Made by a program: the position numbers and the translations under genes | In this document: piece by piece, positions 16,190 to 24,137 of the stretch | Layout: each line of letters begins with the position of its first letter | Position numbering within the stretch: the first letter of the stretch is position 1 | Notes under the pieces: generated by a model | The model's database searches: none | The model's input: only the letters and a program-made list of their open reading frames with translations | What the model was told of the DNA's origin: nothing | IMG/VR virus record: IMGVR_UViG_3300025131_000351 | Coordinates: 1 to 26,505 of that record | DNA from: a virus | Reading direction: 5' to 3' (one strand) | DNA: 26,505 nt

Positions 16190-16504
16190 TTACTTAAAGG
16201 GCCACTTGATACCTGTGACCCGTTCAAAATTTCTTGTTGCGTTATTAAGCAATGCCTTACTATGATATGTACGTGGATCATTTAGGCCATACTGTAGGTA
16301 TGCGCCCATATATTTTTTTTCTTTAACCAAGGTATCCAAAAAACTTTGGATATCTTGTTTTGAGCCCTTCACAGTCGTTGGCAAGCTAATACCGCCAAAC
16401 ATGGCACTCAGAATTCTCTTTACTTTTAGACCCAGGTTACCAAGTGTTCGGCCGGCCGCCTCATCGATTGTACTTTTTGTTAAATCAATTTCAATAATTT
16501 CCAC
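16190..16504 (-). CDS. Small unknown protein between chaperone-like genes and tape measure
   Basis: This protein has 104 residues and starts with GTG, since no in-frame ATG fits and GAGG lies about 8 bases upstream. The N-terminus is acidic (MEIIEIDLTKSTIDEAAG). A basic middle KVKRIL follows, then TVKGSKQDIQSFLDTLVKEKKYM and a C-terminal FERVTGIKWPFK. I do not recognise a family. It ends 12 bases before the tape measure gene, and a copy of the shared late AT motif lies 17 bases before its start. Its position suggests a tail assembly or minor tail role. The function remains unknown. Confidence 0.72.
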   Translation of the reverse strand: MEIIEIDLTKSTIDEAAGRTLGNLGLKVKRILSAMFGGISLPTTVKGSKQDIQSFLDTLVKEKKYMGAYLQYGLNDPRTYHSKALLNNATRNFERVTGIKWPFK

Positions 16505-16521
16505 GATTAAACCTCATAACG

Positions 16522-16535
16522 CTATTATAAATAGT
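16522..16535 (-). promoter_or_regulatory. Shared late AT motif before the 104-residue gene
   Basis: ACTATTTATAATAG on the coding strand, ending 17 bases before the GTG start. The arms CTATT/AATAG form a dyad, and the complement contains TATAAATA (16526-16533). Confidence 0.5.
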
Positions 16536-16557: not shown

Positions 16558-16839
16558 TTAAGATAACGTATGAGTTTGTTTGCCGGAAGAGGCACCTTTA
16601 CCACGGGCTTTCTCAATTTGCTCATGTTCATATTCTTTTTGTTGATTTAGCCTTTCTGTAAACCAATTTCTTAGTTTTACAGGCAGGTTATAAATCTCAA
16701 TAAAGCTCCAATTTCCATGATATTTGAGAGCGAATGCTTGTTCGTATAAATGCTTTTGATAATTATGATCTAGGCCAAAAAAATTCCGTAGTAAACGGCA
16801 CCTCCATATCTTGGGAATGTCCACATTCAAAACACTCAA
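16558..16839 (-). CDS. Downstream frame of the tail chaperone pair, probably expressed by ribosomal frameshift
   Basis: This 93-codon open frame overlaps the preceding gene by 77 bases in the +1 frame. It contains no ATG; the first possible start is a TTG at 16839 with no ribosome site in front. The part after the upstream gene's end is protein-like: GLDHNYQKHLYEQAFALKYH, then GNWSFIEIYNLPVKLRNWF, then a charged coiled helix RLNQQKEYEHEQIEKARGKG. The portion within the overlap is poor (MSVLNVDIPKIWRCRLLRN). The natural reading is a 72-residue C-terminal extension joined to the upstream protein at the T7 run (16777-16783), giving about 354 residues. Its place between tube and tape measure equals that of lambda G/GT-type chaperone extensions. 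Real coding probably covers 16558 to about 16777. Confidence 0.72.
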   Translation of the reverse strand: MSVLNVDIPKIWRCRLLRNFFGLDHNYQKHLYEQAFALKYHGNWSFIEIYNLPVKLRNWFTERLNQQKEYEHEQIEKARGKGASSGKQTHTLS

Positions 16840-17623
16840 AAAATTGAGTCAAGTCGACATTGGGTACTATTTTGGAATAATGATTACGTAAATATTTTGA
16901 ATCAAAGGCTGGCATTACATTAATAAATTCTGCAATAAGGTTTCTATCCTCGACATCATTTACTGCTACAATATACGCCTTAAATTGATCTGTTAGGGTA
17001 AATTCATTTTTATTCTTTTTTGAACTTTGTAAAAGTCTTTTTTCATCGCGTCCGGTTAAAAGCCTGGTTTCAACAACCGCTTTTGATCTAGGAAGGGTAA
17101 AAGCAAATGTGCCACGCTCTGTTACTTTGGCTTCTCCAAGATCTAGATCATCAGGGGTTTTTGTTGTATTATCCTCTAAATTAAATGTAAATTCTTGTGC
17201 TGCCGCGCATGCTGGACATGTAACAGAGGCTTTATATTCGGCGCCATATGCCGAAATTCTACTGGCTACAATTAATGCATTCTTATCTCCAATACATAAA
17301 TCTTCCAGTCGAACGCCGGCTGTAACGATAAGCGATTGAAGCATTCTATCAAGAGCGACGCCCTTTTTAAGAAGAGATTTATTAACTAAAATATCTTCTT
17401 CTTTCGCTGTCATTAATTTAATTTCCACCTCTTCTTTCATATGAAGTGGATGTCCTTGCGGATAAAAACGTCCCTTTGTTGGTAAATCAACCAGCTCAGT
17501 GGGTACAACAAAGTGTAAACCGCCAGAAACATCTGCTGCTTCAACGGTCTCATCTGTTATATCATTGTGGGGGACGTTTGGAGTAGGCGCCTGAAAGCGG
17601 GCGCTATTATCTCTAACTGTCAT
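16763..17623 (-). CDS. gp26/T4_baseplate-family protein with zinc ribbon, in tail chaperone position
   Basis: This protein has 286 residues. The conserved entry segment VPTELVDLPTKGRFYPQGHPL (from about 40), followed by VEIKLMTAKEEDILVNKSLLKKG (66-88) and LDRMLQSLI, is typical of the myophage gp26-type baseplate/tail assembly family (Pfam T4_baseplate, recalled rather than searched). Two CxxC knuckles, C136/C139 (CPAC) and C264/C267 (CFEC), probably form one zinc ribbon that brackets a beta-rich domain. The protein ends FFWPRS, five codons after a run of seven T that can shift the reading frame into 16558-16839. RBS AAGAGG precedes the ATG, 22 bases after the tube gene. Position before the tape measure suggests it works as a tail assembly chaperone; T4 gp26 itself is assigned to the baseplate hub. 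Confidence 0.8.
   Translation of the reverse strand: MTVRDNSARFQAPTPNVPHNDITDETVEAADVSGGLHFVVPTELVDLPTKGRFYPQGHPLHMKEEVEIKLMTAKEEDILVNKSLLKKGVALDRMLQSLIVTAGVRLEDLCIGDKNALIVASRISAYGAEYKASVTCPACAAAQEFTFNLEDNTTKTPDDLDLGEAKVTERGTFAFTLPRSKAVVETRLLTGRDEKRLLQSSKKNKNEFTLTDQFKAYIVAVNDVEDRNLIAEFINVMPAFDSKYLRNHYSKIVPNVDLTQFFECFECGHSQDMEVPFTTEFFWPRS
16777..16783 (-). promoter_or_regulatory. Candidate +1/-2 programmed frameshift site (T7 run)
   Basis: On the coding strand the sequence reads GAA TTT TTT TGG CCT in the zero frame. Slipping the phenylalanine tRNA from TTT to the next TTT by +1, or back by 2, keeps perfect pairing and opens the frame GGC CTA GAT, which encodes the downstream extension. A -1 slip would meet TAG two codons later, so it cannot be the productive event. 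The zero-frame stop TAA follows five codons after the T run. No strong downstream stem was seen by eye. Confidence 0.6.
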
Positions 17624-17645: not shown

Positions 17646-18335
17646 TTATGAAGACTCACCACCGGTATCGATAGTATTTGGAATGAATGCCGACCCAATA
17701 ATATCTTTAGCGAGACCCAGGCCGGCAGAATTGTTAATAATCTGACTAATTCCATTACTCTCGCCGCCGGCTTTGGTCATGTAGGCAAAGTCATATTGAA
17801 GAGTCATACTAACTGTAGTAAGCTCTTCATTGCCATAATCCAGTGATCCAAAATCAACAGTACCTTGAATAAAAGGATTAATTAATCTCCATTGATCAAC
17901 TATTCTTTGTAGTGGGGGTGTCGTAAGATCAAAATTTGGGGGAATACCAAGTTGCGAGATCGTAACATCGCCTAAAACGCCAACCATCGATCCTTTAGTA
18001 AGATTTGTTGCTGCTGCATTTGCGGCGACGGAAGCACCGCCGGCCGGCACCTCGTAACCAGCCAATCTTAGAAAAGACATGACTGTCGCAGACGAGTCAG
18101 TCGGACTGACAGGATCAACTAATGTTAAACTAATTGGTGACCAAGTAACGCGACCAGGATAATTAAAAGTATGATTAATGTACTGATGGGGAGTGCTGGA
18201 AACTTCAAATTTAGGTTTATCAACGGATTTAACAAGCCACTTGATATTATCAAAATTAGATATGCTGACAACAAATCTAAAATTTCTTTTTGGCTCAACT
18301 GCGGGGCTATCCCAGAAATTATCGAACGATCCCAT
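17646..18335 (-). CDS. Tail tube protein (gp19-like)
   Basis: This protein has 229 residues, longer than T4 gp19 (163) but with the same plan. The N-terminus FDNFWDSPAVEPKRNFRFVV introduces a beta-barrel tube fold, followed by WLVKSVDKPKFEVSS and YPGRVTWSPISLTLVDPVSP, the usual tube-protein motif order. After a variable Ala/Gly insert (about 95-125), the closing strands INPFIQGTVDFGSLDYGNEELTTVSMTLQYDFA match the gp19 C-terminal half. It polymerises in hexameric rings inside the sheath and is the channel for DNA. It follows the sheath gene by 58 bases, as in T4 (18 then 19). The GGGAG ribosome site lies about 12 bases before the ATG. Confidence 0.9.
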   Translation of the reverse strand: MGSFDNFWDSPAVEPKRNFRFVVSISNFDNIKWLVKSVDKPKFEVSSTPHQYINHTFNYPGRVTWSPISLTLVDPVSPTDSSATVMSFLRLAGYEVPAGGASVAANAAATNLTKGSMVGVLGDVTISQLGIPPNFDLTTPPLQRIVDQWRLINPFIQGTVDFGSLDYGNEELTTVSMTLQYDFAYMTKAGGESNGISQIINNSAGLGLAKDIIGSAFIPNTIDTGGESS

Positions 18336-18393
18336 TTATTTAAAGTCTCCCTGTATGATACTAACTCATTTATAATTAGTTGTTAAATTGTTT

Positions 18394-21360
18394 TTAATCT
18401 TCGAAAGATGCTCCACTGCGTGTAATTAAGAAATCAATCGCAATAAATTCAATTGCCTTGGCAGGTTTCAAGAATATTTTTGCGTACATAATGTTTCTAT
18501 CACGCATTTCCGGAGTGGTCGTTGACTCATCCAAAATGAGTTTGTAATCTTCAAGACCAAATTTTGATTGAACATCTTTAAGAACCGGATTTGCTGCGCC
18601 GACGAAACGGGCCCAAGTTGAGGGAACGTTTTGATCAAATAAAACCAGGTTTGCAATTTGAGAAATTCTCTTTTTGAGATAAATCATCAAGCGACGAACA
18701 TTAATTCTATCTAGCGCCGATTGCTCAAGCTGTAGTGTCTTCTGTCCAAAGACCACAATTCCTTCTGCCGGAAAAGAAGCAATCGGATTGATTCTAACAT
18801 CATAAAGATCATCTCTTTCACGCGAAGTAAGTTTTCTGCGAACATTTGTTATCGGAATACCGGCAGCACCCTTGCTCAAGCCGCCTCGATTAAAGCCGGC
18901 TGGAGCAAACCAAAGTTCACTTCTTGCGGCAGAACTACCCATTGTTCCCAAAGCAGCTACAGAAGATGGAATCCACAACATTTGGCCTGTGCCCCCATCA
19001 ACTGTCTGTACCCACGGGAAGAAGGCGCAGCCATAACTTGAATTTGTAGATCTGGCTCTCATACTAGCAACGGCTTGAGCAACATCCGGAACTGCTGGAT
19101 ATGAAGTTGAATCTGGATCACCTTCCTGTACTGGTACGTAATCATTTTCTACATCGATGATCGCCAGAGCATCGCCCCGGTCTTCACAAACTTCGATCAA
19201 ACGGTCAGTAAACGCCGGCACGTAAACACCAGGTATCGTCGCAAGATTACATTCTACAACTTCTGGATCCGCAATAATATTGATTGCTCTATTCACCGAG
19301 GCGCGTGCATAATTTGTAACATCGGTGGTGCCGCGGCCTCCGGTGGAGGTGACCCCATCTAATACGGTATTGCGGAATGGATCACGATCTGTAATATCAA
19401 GACCATCAAAACCTCCATGTAATACTGTGGTAAATTTACTAATCTTGTTTGTATTGATCAGTGCGGACGAGCCGGACTTGGCAGTCCAAGACGTACTGCT
19501 GGCGCGGGAGCCGGATTCATAATACCAAGAATCACCATCGGCTTTTGTTGAGCTATTCTTGCCGCCAGAACCTGTTTTAATTAGATTATCTAATGTAAAT
19601 ACATATTGATACTTGACGGGCGTCGCGATGGTGGAGCCCGGGGTCCAACTATCAAGACCCATTGGCTTAGCTCGAACCAGATCTAAAGTGCCTTCATCAA
19701 ATCTAGTTTTTGAGCCGGCTTGATTAACATTCACACCGAAATACGCATCTCGGGGGTCAATAAAGCCCATATCGCTCGAAGAACCAATAAGAGCCAAAGA
19801 TGGGGAGGTAAAGCTGCCAGTCATGCCCTCGGTGTCGGTGCCGGGGGAGGTGGCGCAACGAATGTACGTTAACGGCATTTCATAGCCCTTGGCAATAAAG
19901 CCGGCGTCTTGGGTGTGAGGGTTCCGGCCGGTGGTAGCAATCTCAGCCGACACGCTCGTGAGCGAGCTGGAGACCATTGTCCAAGTCTTATATGTTAGCG
20001 GCCCTTTTACACCAAATGGCATGAGTTCCGCGTTCAAAGTACCAGCATCCACATCAGAATCCATTTCTACACGAATGTATTTGGAAACATTATTGTAGTT
20101 TCCATAATGTACGAGCCTCTGAGTTACTGAATCGTATTGAAATCTTTTATCGCCGATTTTACGTGCTATATAATTCGGAGATTGAGGATTTAAATTACAA
20201 TTAGAGAAAGTCTCTAAAACTTTCGGACGTATATCAGTATCGCGCAATTGGCGAACTTCCAGCGTGAAAGAAGGGTAAGGATCTACTGATTTTTCTTGAG
20301 CACTTGGAGATCTTAAATCACGAATTGAAATTTTAATTTCTTTTTGTGTTTGCTCTCCATTTGCTGTCAGGCCATGAACTCTGAATAAGTTCTCCGTATG
20401 GACCGCTGGATTAAATGTAACAGCGGGAGCACTAGTATCTTGTGAAATAAACCAACCAGTGGCGGCAGCTTGAGGGCCTTTATCTGTCGTCGTAAGTCCC
20501 AAGAAATCTGCGCCATCGATTGAGCCCGAAAGAAGACCTAAAATTATACCATAATATCCGTCTGAACTTGACAATGCAGCAACAGCTTTTTCATAAGTTT
20601 CTCCTAGCCAATAATCAATTCTTTTTTCCGATGATACGGTGCCCGTATTTATTCTTGTTGGATCCGTATTAAAGGCGGCCCGAATATAATTTGAACTGGT
20701 TCGAACAAAATCAACGCTTTTTGTTTCCACAACTCCATTGGCGCCTGTTAAAGCAATCTTAAATTGTGGTGGATTTCCGGCCGTACCGACTGAGTTAATA
20801 AAAATTGCATTCCCTCGTTCGTTGCCGGCGGTACTGACAGCGCGAACAGAGCCAGATAAAACAGGAGTAGACCCAGTACAATAAAAAACCGCAGCAAGAG
20901 TACCAGTGACGGCCGTGTCGTACGAGGCCGATGGACAAATCCACAAACCATAAGCGCCGATGCCGTTGTCGTCACTGGATAAGCCGCCCGGTGACCAACC
21001 GGCTGCTCCAGCAGCTTTAGTGGCTCCGGCATTAACTGATTGTGCTCCCAATAAACGTACAAACGTTATTGGGCTGTTATTGGCCAGATATGCTTTTGCA
21101 GCATATGTAGCATACATGGGACTGGTGAAATTTCCGTTTCTCCATACATCAAGCGACGTACCTCCAGGTACAGTATCTCCAAATATTTGGACAAATTCAT
21201 CATAAGATCTAATAACTGTTGGTACAAAAGCCGGTCCCATGGCGGTTCGGCCAATAATGACGGGTCCCTGAACCACATTTCCTAAATTTGGTACTTGAGA
21301 TTGGTCGACTTCTGTTATGAAGACTCCAGGTGACACAAAACGATATTTATCTGCCGGCAT
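18394..21360 (-). CDS. Contractile tail sheath protein (gp18-like), enlarged
   Basis: This protein has 988 residues, much longer than T4 gp18 (659). The N-terminal KYRFVSPGVFITEVDQSQVP (5-24) is the classic sheath start that threads into neighbouring subunits. VVQGPVIIGRTAMGPAFVP and a YDEFVQIFG motif follow. The last 250 residues contain SSVAALGTMG, NPIASFPAEGIVVFGQKTL, LDRINVRRLMIYLKKRISQ and FEPN-like FDQNVPSTWARF, ending in the strand ITRSG; these form the conserved inner handshake domain. Much of the middle (about 120-650) is Ser/Thr/Gly-rich and is the variable outward-facing part. AAGGAG lies about 9 bases before the ATG, and a shared late AT motif lies 39 bases upstream of the start. 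The extra length is probably surface domains. Confidence 0.93.
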   Translation of the reverse strand: MPADKYRFVSPGVFITEVDQSQVPNLGNVVQGPVIIGRTAMGPAFVPTVIRSYDEFVQIFGDTVPGGTSLDVWRNGNFTSPMYATYAAKAYLANNSPITFVRLLGAQSVNAGATKAAGAAGWSPGGLSSDDNGIGAYGLWICPSASYDTAVTGTLAAVFYCTGSTPVLSGSVRAVSTAGNERGNAIFINSVGTAGNPPQFKIALTGANGVVETKSVDFVRTSSNYIRAAFNTDPTRINTGTVSSEKRIDYWLGETYEKAVAALSSSDGYYGIILGLLSGSIDGADFLGLTTTDKGPQAAATGWFISQDTSAPAVTFNPAVHTENLFRVHGLTANGEQTQKEIKISIRDLRSPSAQEKSVDPYPSFTLEVRQLRDTDIRPKVLETFSNCNLNPQSPNYIARKIGDKRFQYDSVTQRLVHYGNYNNVSKYIRVEMDSDVDAGTLNAELMPFGVKGPLTYKTWTMVSSSLTSVSAEIATTGRNPHTQDAGFIAKGYEMPLTYIRCATSPGTDTEGMTGSFTSPSLALIGSSSDMGFIDPRDAYFGVNVNQAGSKTRFDEGTLDLVRAKPMGLDSWTPGSTIATPVKYQYVFTLDNLIKTGSGGKNSSTKADGDSWYYESGSRASSTSWTAKSGSSALINTNKISKFTTVLHGGFDGLDITDRDPFRNTVLDGVTSTGGRGTTDVTNYARASVNRAINIIADPEVVECNLATIPGVYVPAFTDRLIEVCEDRGDALAIIDVENDYVPVQEGDPDSTSYPAVPDVAQAVASMRARSTNSSYGCAFFPWVQTVDGGTGQMLWIPSSVAALGTMGSSAARSELWFAPAGFNRGGLSKGAAGIPITNVRRKLTSRERDDLYDVRINPIASFPAEGIVVFGQKTLQLEQSALDRINVRRLMIYLKKRISQIANLVLFDQNVPSTWARFVGAANPVLKDVQSKFGLEDYKLILDESTTTPEMRDRNIMYAKIFLKPAKAIEFIAIDFLITRSGASFED

Positions 21361-21399: not shown

Positions 21400-21413
21400 C
21401 TATAATAAATAGT
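21400..21413 (-). promoter_or_regulatory. Shared late AT motif before the sheath gene
   Basis: ACTATTTATTATAG on the coding strand, 39 bases before the sheath ATG and just beyond the end of the gp15-like gene. The arms CTAT/ATAG form a short dyad. Confidence 0.5.
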
Positions 21414-24123: not shown

Positions 24124-24137
24124 CTAATATAAATAGT
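24124..24137 (-). promoter_or_regulatory. Shared late AT motif before the gp13-like gene
   Basis: ACTATTTATATTAG on the coding strand, 21 bases before the ATG. Its complement contains an exact T4 late-promoter octamer TATAAATA (24128-24135), so the working orientation is uncertain. Confidence 0.5.

Follow-up and report, generated by a model that had tools for sequence, protein, structure and literature searches.

A candidate +1 programmed frameshift that would join a gp26-type tail-assembly chaperone to a conserved C-terminal extension across a large phage group

The gp26-type gene and the frame overlapping its end

The stretch of DNA analysed here (hereafter the window, 26,505 nt) is the IMG/VR virus record IMGVR_UViG_3300025131_000351, the minus strand of which carries a tail gene of the gp26 type and a second frame that overlaps its 3′-end (Table 1). 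The gene ends in GAA TTT TTT TGG CCT AGA TCA TAA, and the C-terminal extension, which lies in the second, +1 (= −2) frame, runs from GGC at 16776 to TAA at 16560-16558. A preliminary description of this DNA had proposed that the two frames are joined by a programmed frameshift on a run of seven T (T7); the frames, the stops and the run were all found as claimed, on the minus strand. The comparative data presented below make it highly probable that a short and a long tail-assembly chaperone (TAC) are made from this one gene by a +1 programmed frameshift, which would be stimulated by a split Shine-Dalgarno (SD) sequence and a hairpin.

The assignment to the gp26 family made in that description was borne out by profile searches. 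Pfam family PF12322 (T4_baseplate) matched residues 64-283 of the gene product (E 4.3e-14, 53.2 bits versus a curated cut-off of 24.5), and phrog_150, annotated as 'baseplate hub', matched with an E-value of 1.5e-15. Cys136/139 and Cys264/267 are arranged like a zinc ribbon, and all four residues were invariant in a 16-sequence alignment. The AlphaFold2 (AF2) model of the protein (predicted local distance difference test score 79.9, predicted template modelling score 0.74) gave 63 matches with E ≤ 0.001 in BFVD, the best of which included SP-15 and other baseplate hub proteins. When the N-terminal part was aligned with 592 chains, the top two were the HK97 chaperone 2ob9 and the tail chaperone YqbN (3klu), with Z 5.7 each and 3.4 for the next chain; the root-mean-square deviation was 5.2 over 84 positions for 2ob9 and 8.2 over 91 for 3klu, and the Foldseek E-values exceeded 1, that is, they were not significant. 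This likeness of the modelled N-terminal fold hints at common descent with other tail chaperones.

Table 1. Features of the locus and of the adjoining tail genes in the window
Feature	Position	Strand	Basis or remark
Short form (TAC-N) of the probable gp26-type tail-assembly chaperone, 286 aa, ATG start	17623-16763	minus	profile matches, Cys alignment, AF2 model
SD-like GGAGGT	16805-16800	minus	16 nt 5′ of T run
Spacer hairpin CCGU-UUACU-ACGG	16786..16798	minus	predicted fold
Slip site UUU UUU UGG (0-frame codons)	16775..16783	minus	U7 = 16783-16777
0-frame stop TAA	16765-16763	minus	fourth codon past UGG
+1-frame C-terminal extension (putative TAC-C / T domain), 72 aa + stop	16776-16558	minus	frame conservation
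Predicted fused long product, 354 aa	17623-16558	minus	+1 joining of both frames
Tail tube gene	17646..18335	minus	phrog_4542 tail tube, E 3.2e-23
Tail sheath gene	18394..21360	minus	phrog_23, E 3.7e-58
Putative tape measure gene, 841 aa	13652..16177	minus	size and place only
104-aa gene, GTG start	16190-16504	minus	between extension and putative tape measure; present in L004 too

Conservation of the junction and of the upstream signal

Viral homologues were collected with a query alignment of the gp26 body that ended 24 codons 5′ of the site, so that there was no selection on the site itself. From the 593 relatives obtained, the best-scoring 80, which are not a random sample, were examined, and the extension was in the +1 frame in 80/80. 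When the extension itself was the query, 19 loci were found (one of them, L005, being the window's own virus), all of which had TTTTTTTGG at the junction followed by the extension in the +1 frame. Among the matches of a pattern scan (at least 120), the architecture was shared by 119 of the 120 listed, the exception (L062) showing 84 open codons before its stretch ends; it was also found in 10/10 genome-contig loci examined (11 were detected, and L333, whose match reaches the contig end, was left out). The homologues have kept the +1 frame, the T run and also the FFWP ending, for all of which the preliminary description had proposed to look.

L015 and L020 were kept out of the pooled set as near-duplicates, and the 97 loci of this set comprised 94 non-redundant ones. 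The slip-site codons in this set were TTTTTTTGG (UUU UUU UGG) in 89 loci, TTTCTTTGG (UUU CUU UGG) in three and TTCTTTTGG (UUC UUU UGG) in two; a YUU-U slip codon and UGG as the next codon were present in 94/94. Synonymous change was strongly suppressed at the junction of 80 loci: the two Phe codons had observed/expected ratios of 0.08 and 0.00, the preceding codon one of 0.09 and the GAG of GGAGGT one of 0.13, with a median of 1.06 and a minimum of 0.41 in the gene body. The junction of the window recurs identically in L003 (IMG/VR, same virus, 100% identical) and in L004, the protein of which is 83% identical, and the window and L004 are identical throughout the 90 nt that surround the site (alignment positions 812-901), which speaks against a sequencing error. 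Among isolated phages, YUU-U-GG and the +1 extension occur together in Microcystis phage Mel-JY01, Flavobacterium phage immuto_3-5A and Rhodothermus phage RM378, while the slip codons that go with the +1 extension are different in Bacillus phage SP-15, Listeria phage LIS04 and Streptococcus phage GXN1. As a separate observation, an eighth T seems to be avoided, since the Asp codon preceding Phe-Phe is GAC in 63/64 cases and gene bodies favour GAT (387/606; p 6e-27). A T stands directly before the run in 1/94 loci, where the run is broken; the avoidance is not universal, as L330 of a more distant set has T8.

The preliminary description had seen no ribosome site at the second frame, and on this point it has to be corrected: a strong SD-like GGAGGT lies upstream of the T run, although it is not placed at a start codon, and the hairpin in the spacer had been missed as well. 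GGAGGT preceded the run in 86/94 loci, at a distance of 16 nt (71 loci), 22 nt (14) or 25 nt (1). In the 78 non-redundant loci used for background and start-codon counts, it was found within 60 nt of the site in 70, whereas the gene bodies held three copies in 57,324 nt.

The last 18 nt before the site are predicted to fold. Their mean minimum free energy (MFE) in the 94 loci was −4.41 kcal/mol versus −0.76 kcal/mol after synonymous randomisation by body codon usage, and the difference reached p ≤ 0.05 in 57/94 loci. Of the windows taken stepwise over the final 200 nt of the gene, the −18..−1 window alone stood out clearly (difference −3.72; others −0.53 to +0.60). Permutation of same-amino-acid codons within columns gave a mean of −3.12 (sd 0.23), with −3.72 as the best of 200; since none of the 200 permutations was as low as −4.41, part of the signal reflects pairing beyond column composition. 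In a second set of 63 new distinct loci, picked by SD and T7 pattern and not by spacer, the spacer fold was −3.77 versus −0.27, with p ≤ 0.05 in 44. The hairpin was predicted in 77/86 loci with the SD versus 3/8 without it (Fisher p 0.0016, a test that ignores the relatedness of the loci), including 15/15 loci with a 22- or 25-nt spacer. Once it folds, 1-4 unpaired nt are left in 60/62 loci of the 16-nt class (71 loci, nine without a hairpin) and 4-12 in the 14 loci of the 22-nt class; the mean spacer fold was −4.40 for 16 nt versus −5.76 for 22 nt, although longer strings fold better anyway. The hairpin of the window was part of both the MFE and the centroid structure predicted locally, whereas the full 91-nt region was no more stable than its shuffles (z +0.90). 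Downstream structure was not found in the 0..+18 window (−0.65 versus −0.41 in 62/94 loci, the others reaching the stop). In L026, a 484-kb phage, GGAGGT stands at 25 nt and a 7-bp hairpin is predicted, with 0/300 randomisations as stable.

The idea that loci without GGAGGT belong to phages that do not use SD sequences was rejected, as SD-like motifs were present at 22/38 starts of their open reading frames (ORFs) versus 237/401 in the others (random positions 50/470). In six loci (L025, L326, L327, L329-L331) selected for this outcome from 13 distant ones, no SD was seen at any of 32 ORF starts, and GGAGG or AGGAG precedes the slip site in 4/6; at least four of the six come from Bacteroidota hosts or bins.

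Proposed mechanism, rival explanations and neighbouring genes

Comparison of the loci thus showed conservation of the frames, the slip codons, the SD-like element and the predicted hairpin, and the 80/80 homologues together with the slip-codon suppression support the chaperone-type frameshift that had been suggested for the window. From this conservation we infer that shifting occurs and also its efficiency, its mechanics and the roles of the products, for which the following course may be proposed. Normal decoding would give the 286-aa gp26-type TAC-N, and ribosomes that skip one U would make the 354-aa long form (TAC-NC), in which the terminal WPRS is exchanged for a T-type domain. The slip would consist of re-pairing of the peptidyl-tRNA on YUU|U while UGG waits in the A site. 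GGAGGT may pair with 16S rRNA, and the hairpin would fold away most of the 16-25-nt spacer, which would bring the SD duplex up to the E site, as happens in prfB, and let duplex and hairpin together drive the reading frame forward. Like lambda gpGT, the long form would then link the tape measure to the tube while the tail is assembled. Both elements of the signal have precedents: in a 70S system lacking release factor 2, +1 shifting at CUUUGA was stimulated by an SD duplex or by a stable hairpin placed directly next to the E site (PMC6321510), and hairpins of T4 genes 38 and 25 shorten the SD-AUG spacing for initiation from 22 to 5 and from 27 to 11 nt (PMC3014915). A split SD whose hairpin brings the duplex to a prfB-like distance appears to be the simplest joint reading of the two.

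A −1 shift can be ruled out for the window, as it hits TAG two codons on, which the preliminary description had noted correctly, and GAA TTT TTT TGG holds no in-frame X XXY YYZ heptamer; in the whole set the −1 frame was closed within 12 codons in 88/94 loci. The description had left the direction open between +1 and −2, which cannot be distinguished by frame. In a −2 shift on the same U7, the peptidyl-tRNA-Phe would step back two bases to give EFFF-GLDH. U2-U7 permit perfect −2 re-pairing in 89/94 loci, and a long SD spacing favours backward shifts. This shift would equally account for the first Phe codon, which was TTT in 92/94 loci versus TTC in 79/287 body Phe codons (p 5e-11). Against it, −2 re-pairing is broken and +1 re-pairing retained in L156 and L185 (UUC UUU UGG) and in L026 (AAC UUU CUA), and the CUU-U variants (3/94, plus the immuto phage L025) are the prfB +1 codon; in addition, an upstream hairpin adjoining the slip site stimulated +1 and attenuated −1 shifting (PMC6321510). 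As the common core YUU-U-GG, which lets YUU slip to UUU in all 94 loci, favours +1 and the UUC forms break −2 re-pairing, +1 is most likely the direction of the shift, a conclusion held with good but not absolute confidence, and −2 is considered unlikely.

The extension might also be translated independently, as a separate small protein, by internal initiation or reinitiation from GGAGGT. The SD-like element is strong, the T domain has its own ATG in some relatives (S-SM2, an Erwinia phage), and the extension of Mel-JY01 is annotated as a separate hypothetical gene that starts from TTG. In the window the +1 frame is open upstream as far as TTG at 16839, with further TTG/GTG codons upstream, so that the missing start of the preliminary description held good only in part: no conserved start codon was found for the extension between codons −9 and +12 in 78 non-redundant loci. 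At least one ATG/GTG/TTG, most often at codon 6, occurred there in 52/78 loci, and in 26/78 there was none, which counts against a separate protein. Nor does the position of the conserved SD, 16-25 nt before the slip run, correspond to a start-codon distance; synonymous suppression centred on the slip codons, and the U run itself would be left unexplained; independent translation is thus very unlikely.

Still less probable is transcriptional slippage on T7, which would produce a mixed mRNA population. The junction holds a homopolymer and T8 is avoided (GAT before the run in 1/64 versus the body frequency given above), but runs of just three or four T occur in 5/94 loci (TTTCTTTGG, TTCTTTTGG), and the SD and the hairpin would have no role. 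A sequencing error or a decaying gene, conceivable in a metagenomic fragment, was refuted by the homologues, as the same junction layout with both frames conserved was found in the 94 non-redundant loci, in 63 further loci and in isolated phages, and its probability is negligible. An independent start, an unconserved T run or an error of this kind had been named beforehand as grounds for abandoning the frameshift, and the homologues provided none of them.

Several observations weigh against +1 shifting with a split SD and hairpin. Most of the departure of the spacer from body codon usage (−0.76 to −3.12) is due to fixed codon choice, e.g., CCG for Pro, and only the remainder to covariation. 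The pair count in a fixed register was modest (68.1% of cells paired versus 65.8% after shuffling, 1/500 as high), as expected if registers differ between loci; the covariation score was reached in 2/500 shuffles, but the number of pairs changed on both sides in 127/500, and a second register was weaker. The hairpin is missing in 9/86 SD loci and in 5/8 loci without the SD, and distant relatives are mixed, with structure in the last 36 nt (p ≤ 0.05) in 5/17 (L024, L026, L325, L326, L331). The linear SD spacing of 16-25 nt lies outside the prfB value. The bias for TTT at the first Phe codon is superfluous for +1 shifting at the second Phe alone and fits +1 shifting at either Phe or −2. Finally, the extension reaches the T4 gp51 C-terminus solely via intermediates.

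The gp26-type gene sits between the tube gene, identified by its profile, and the putative tape measure gene, assigned by size and place, which agrees with the position given in the preliminary description; the 104-aa gene intervenes before the tape measure. PHROG and Pfam profile searches gave a convincing match neither for the putative tape measure of 841 aa (best E-values 0.2 and 0.049) nor for the 104-aa protein. Listeria phage LIS04 has the annotated order sheath, tube, baseplate hub (gp26 type) and tape measure. A CTATTTATAATAG-like element was noticed on the minus strand at 16522-16534, 21400-21412 and 24124-24136, and in weaker form at 18367 and 24380. The copies occupy intergenic gaps shortly 5′ of structural genes, and the one at 16522 is conserved in L004. 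The element is possibly a late promoter of the phage; its count over the whole window was near chance (25 versus 17.4, 6/100 shuffles as high), and only its placement is noteworthy.

Comparison with T4-type phages and other recoding systems

Reportedly, an abstract by Vladimirov and colleagues names genes 26 and 51 and has several T4-like groups frameshift. The gp26-family chaperone role and the frameshifting idea are already known. T4 gp26 and gp51 are reported to be tail-assembly chaperones (Vladimirov, Gautam & Davidson 2022, Virology 566:9), so that the link of gp26 to the tail-chaperone scheme, which the preliminary description rightly made, is already in print for T4-like phages. Of two later papers, that of PRFect cites Vladimirov et al. 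(2022) for T4-like phages in which a short gene is accompanied by a longer fusion gene, and that of Adele cites it for poly-T −1 signals in T4-like relatives. A further source lists T4 gp26 and gp51 as hub-assembly chaperones and describes gp51, in addition, as an essential protein whose function is unknown (PMC3004832). The literature searches suggest that the +1 direction, the split-SD/hairpin signal and the breadth of the system are new: among the literature matches listed, no report described +1 shifting in this clade, although Vladimirov et al. (2022) may already cover part of it, and the titles and abstract starts of these matches contained no description of an SD-hairpin +1 signal in tail chaperones. 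The T4-type chaperone scheme would thereby be extended to a large, mostly uncultured phage group (at least 593 IMG/VR relatives, best 80 examined), and GGAGGT, the hairpin and TTTTTTTGGCC would form an annotation signature for a domain that is now missed or misread; in immuto_3-5A, only the last 36 aa of the extension are annotated, as a hypothetical protein.

The gp26 of the window, T4 gp26 and T4 gp51 all match phrog_150. Of the 282 profile positions, gp51 covers 13-280 and T4 gp26 14-235; therefore, gp51 consists of a gp26-like body and an extra C-terminal part. In T4 the short and the long form are two genes, whereas the window has one gene and a candidate frameshift, and the T4-like relatives have a −1 poly-T signal, according to the citing paper, in contrast to +1 in the window. 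By eye, the AF2 models of the window gp26 and a gp51 relative were broadly colinear, with gp51 ending in three extra helices. The C-terminal part of gp51, aligned without L321 because of a frame break, matched the T frame of cyanophages with an hhalign probability of 94.8% (0/100 column shuffles as high), and on this profile evidence the two are homologous. The extension of the window gave no match with the T4 gp51 C-terminus in a direct profile comparison (probability 0.2). Its values against cyanophage T were 46%, 28% and 48%, and 7.6% in a rerun (2/100 shuffles as high), against cyanophage T pooled with gp51 64%, and against jumbo-phage T 74%; when the whole fusion was compared with gp51, only the zinc-finger stretch aligned (21%).

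The gp26 of T4-type cyanophages (S-SM2 relatives) belongs to the same family and shares the Phe-Phe place and an upstream SD-like element; it differs in having a −1 heptamer, with GAGGG/AAGGG 8-9 nt upstream and little room for a hairpin. In-frame T TTT TTC was present in 79/79 readable cyanophage loci (the best 80 of 598 were taken, and L306 runs off its contig; S-SM2 is L228, the others L233-L312). The 76 distinct strings had an SD spacing of 9 nt in 61 and 8 nt in 15, with GGG after GAA in 15/15 and GGN after GAG in 61/61. Besides S-SM2, the T frame of which is annotated as a separate hypothetical protein, T TTT TTC with a T-like frame in −1 was found in 5/10 isolate or huge-phage records (L227, L229-L232). 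One protein family may thus reach the same end by +1 shifting, −1 shifting or gene duplication, and −1 and +1 signals on the same codons would offer a natural experiment on SD distance and frameshift direction.

Lambda gpG/gpGT differs from the window in shifting −1, and no sequence relation of the window gp26 to gpG/gpGT-type chaperones was seen. In a review, tail-chaperone frameshifting is called widely conserved 'except T4', and one archaeal myovirus is given as very likely +1 (PMC5009743). With prfB, the window family has in common the YUU-U slip (CUU-U in 3/94) and the upstream SD. The prfB SD sits 3 nt away and without a hairpin, in contrast to 16-25 nt and a hairpin in the window family. 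The A site of prfB holds a stop codon, whereas that of the window family holds UGG.

A likeness to the proposed SD arrangement is seen in T4 genes 25 and 38, which have split ribosome-binding sites where an intervening hairpin joins the SD and the decoding site (PMC3014915); they differ in serving initiation and not frameshifting, and the T4 hairpin contains the Phe-Phe codons. The gene 25 split site lies at the gene 26-25 junction of T4 (L147 3840-3800, minus), on codons that match the cyanophage SD and Phe-Phe: cyanophage GAG GGN-Leu-x-x-Phe-Phe aligns with T4 AGA GGC-Leu-Lys-Glu-Phe-Phe, the AGAGG of which precedes the AUG of gene 25 by 27 nt, in agreement with the published spacing of the split site (PMC3014915). 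These likenesses allow the tentative proposal, which we put at somewhat less than an even chance, of a modular SD at the 3′-ends of gp26-family genes, the effective distance of which to Phe-Phe sets the direction of recoding and the T4 element of which became the gene 25 split site. In the cyanophages, −1 shifting would result from an SD that lies 8-9 nt from U UUU UUC and has no hairpin; in the clade of the window, +1 shifting on YUU-U-GG would result from an SD 16-25 nt off, a distance that the hairpin shortens to a few nt. In T4 the long form would have become the separate gene 51, and the element of gene 26 would have been recruited to provide gene 25 with its split ribosome-binding site; that this site descends from a frameshift signal is speculation. 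If the proposal is true, the hairpin-gated SD would represent a type of +1 stimulator not described before.

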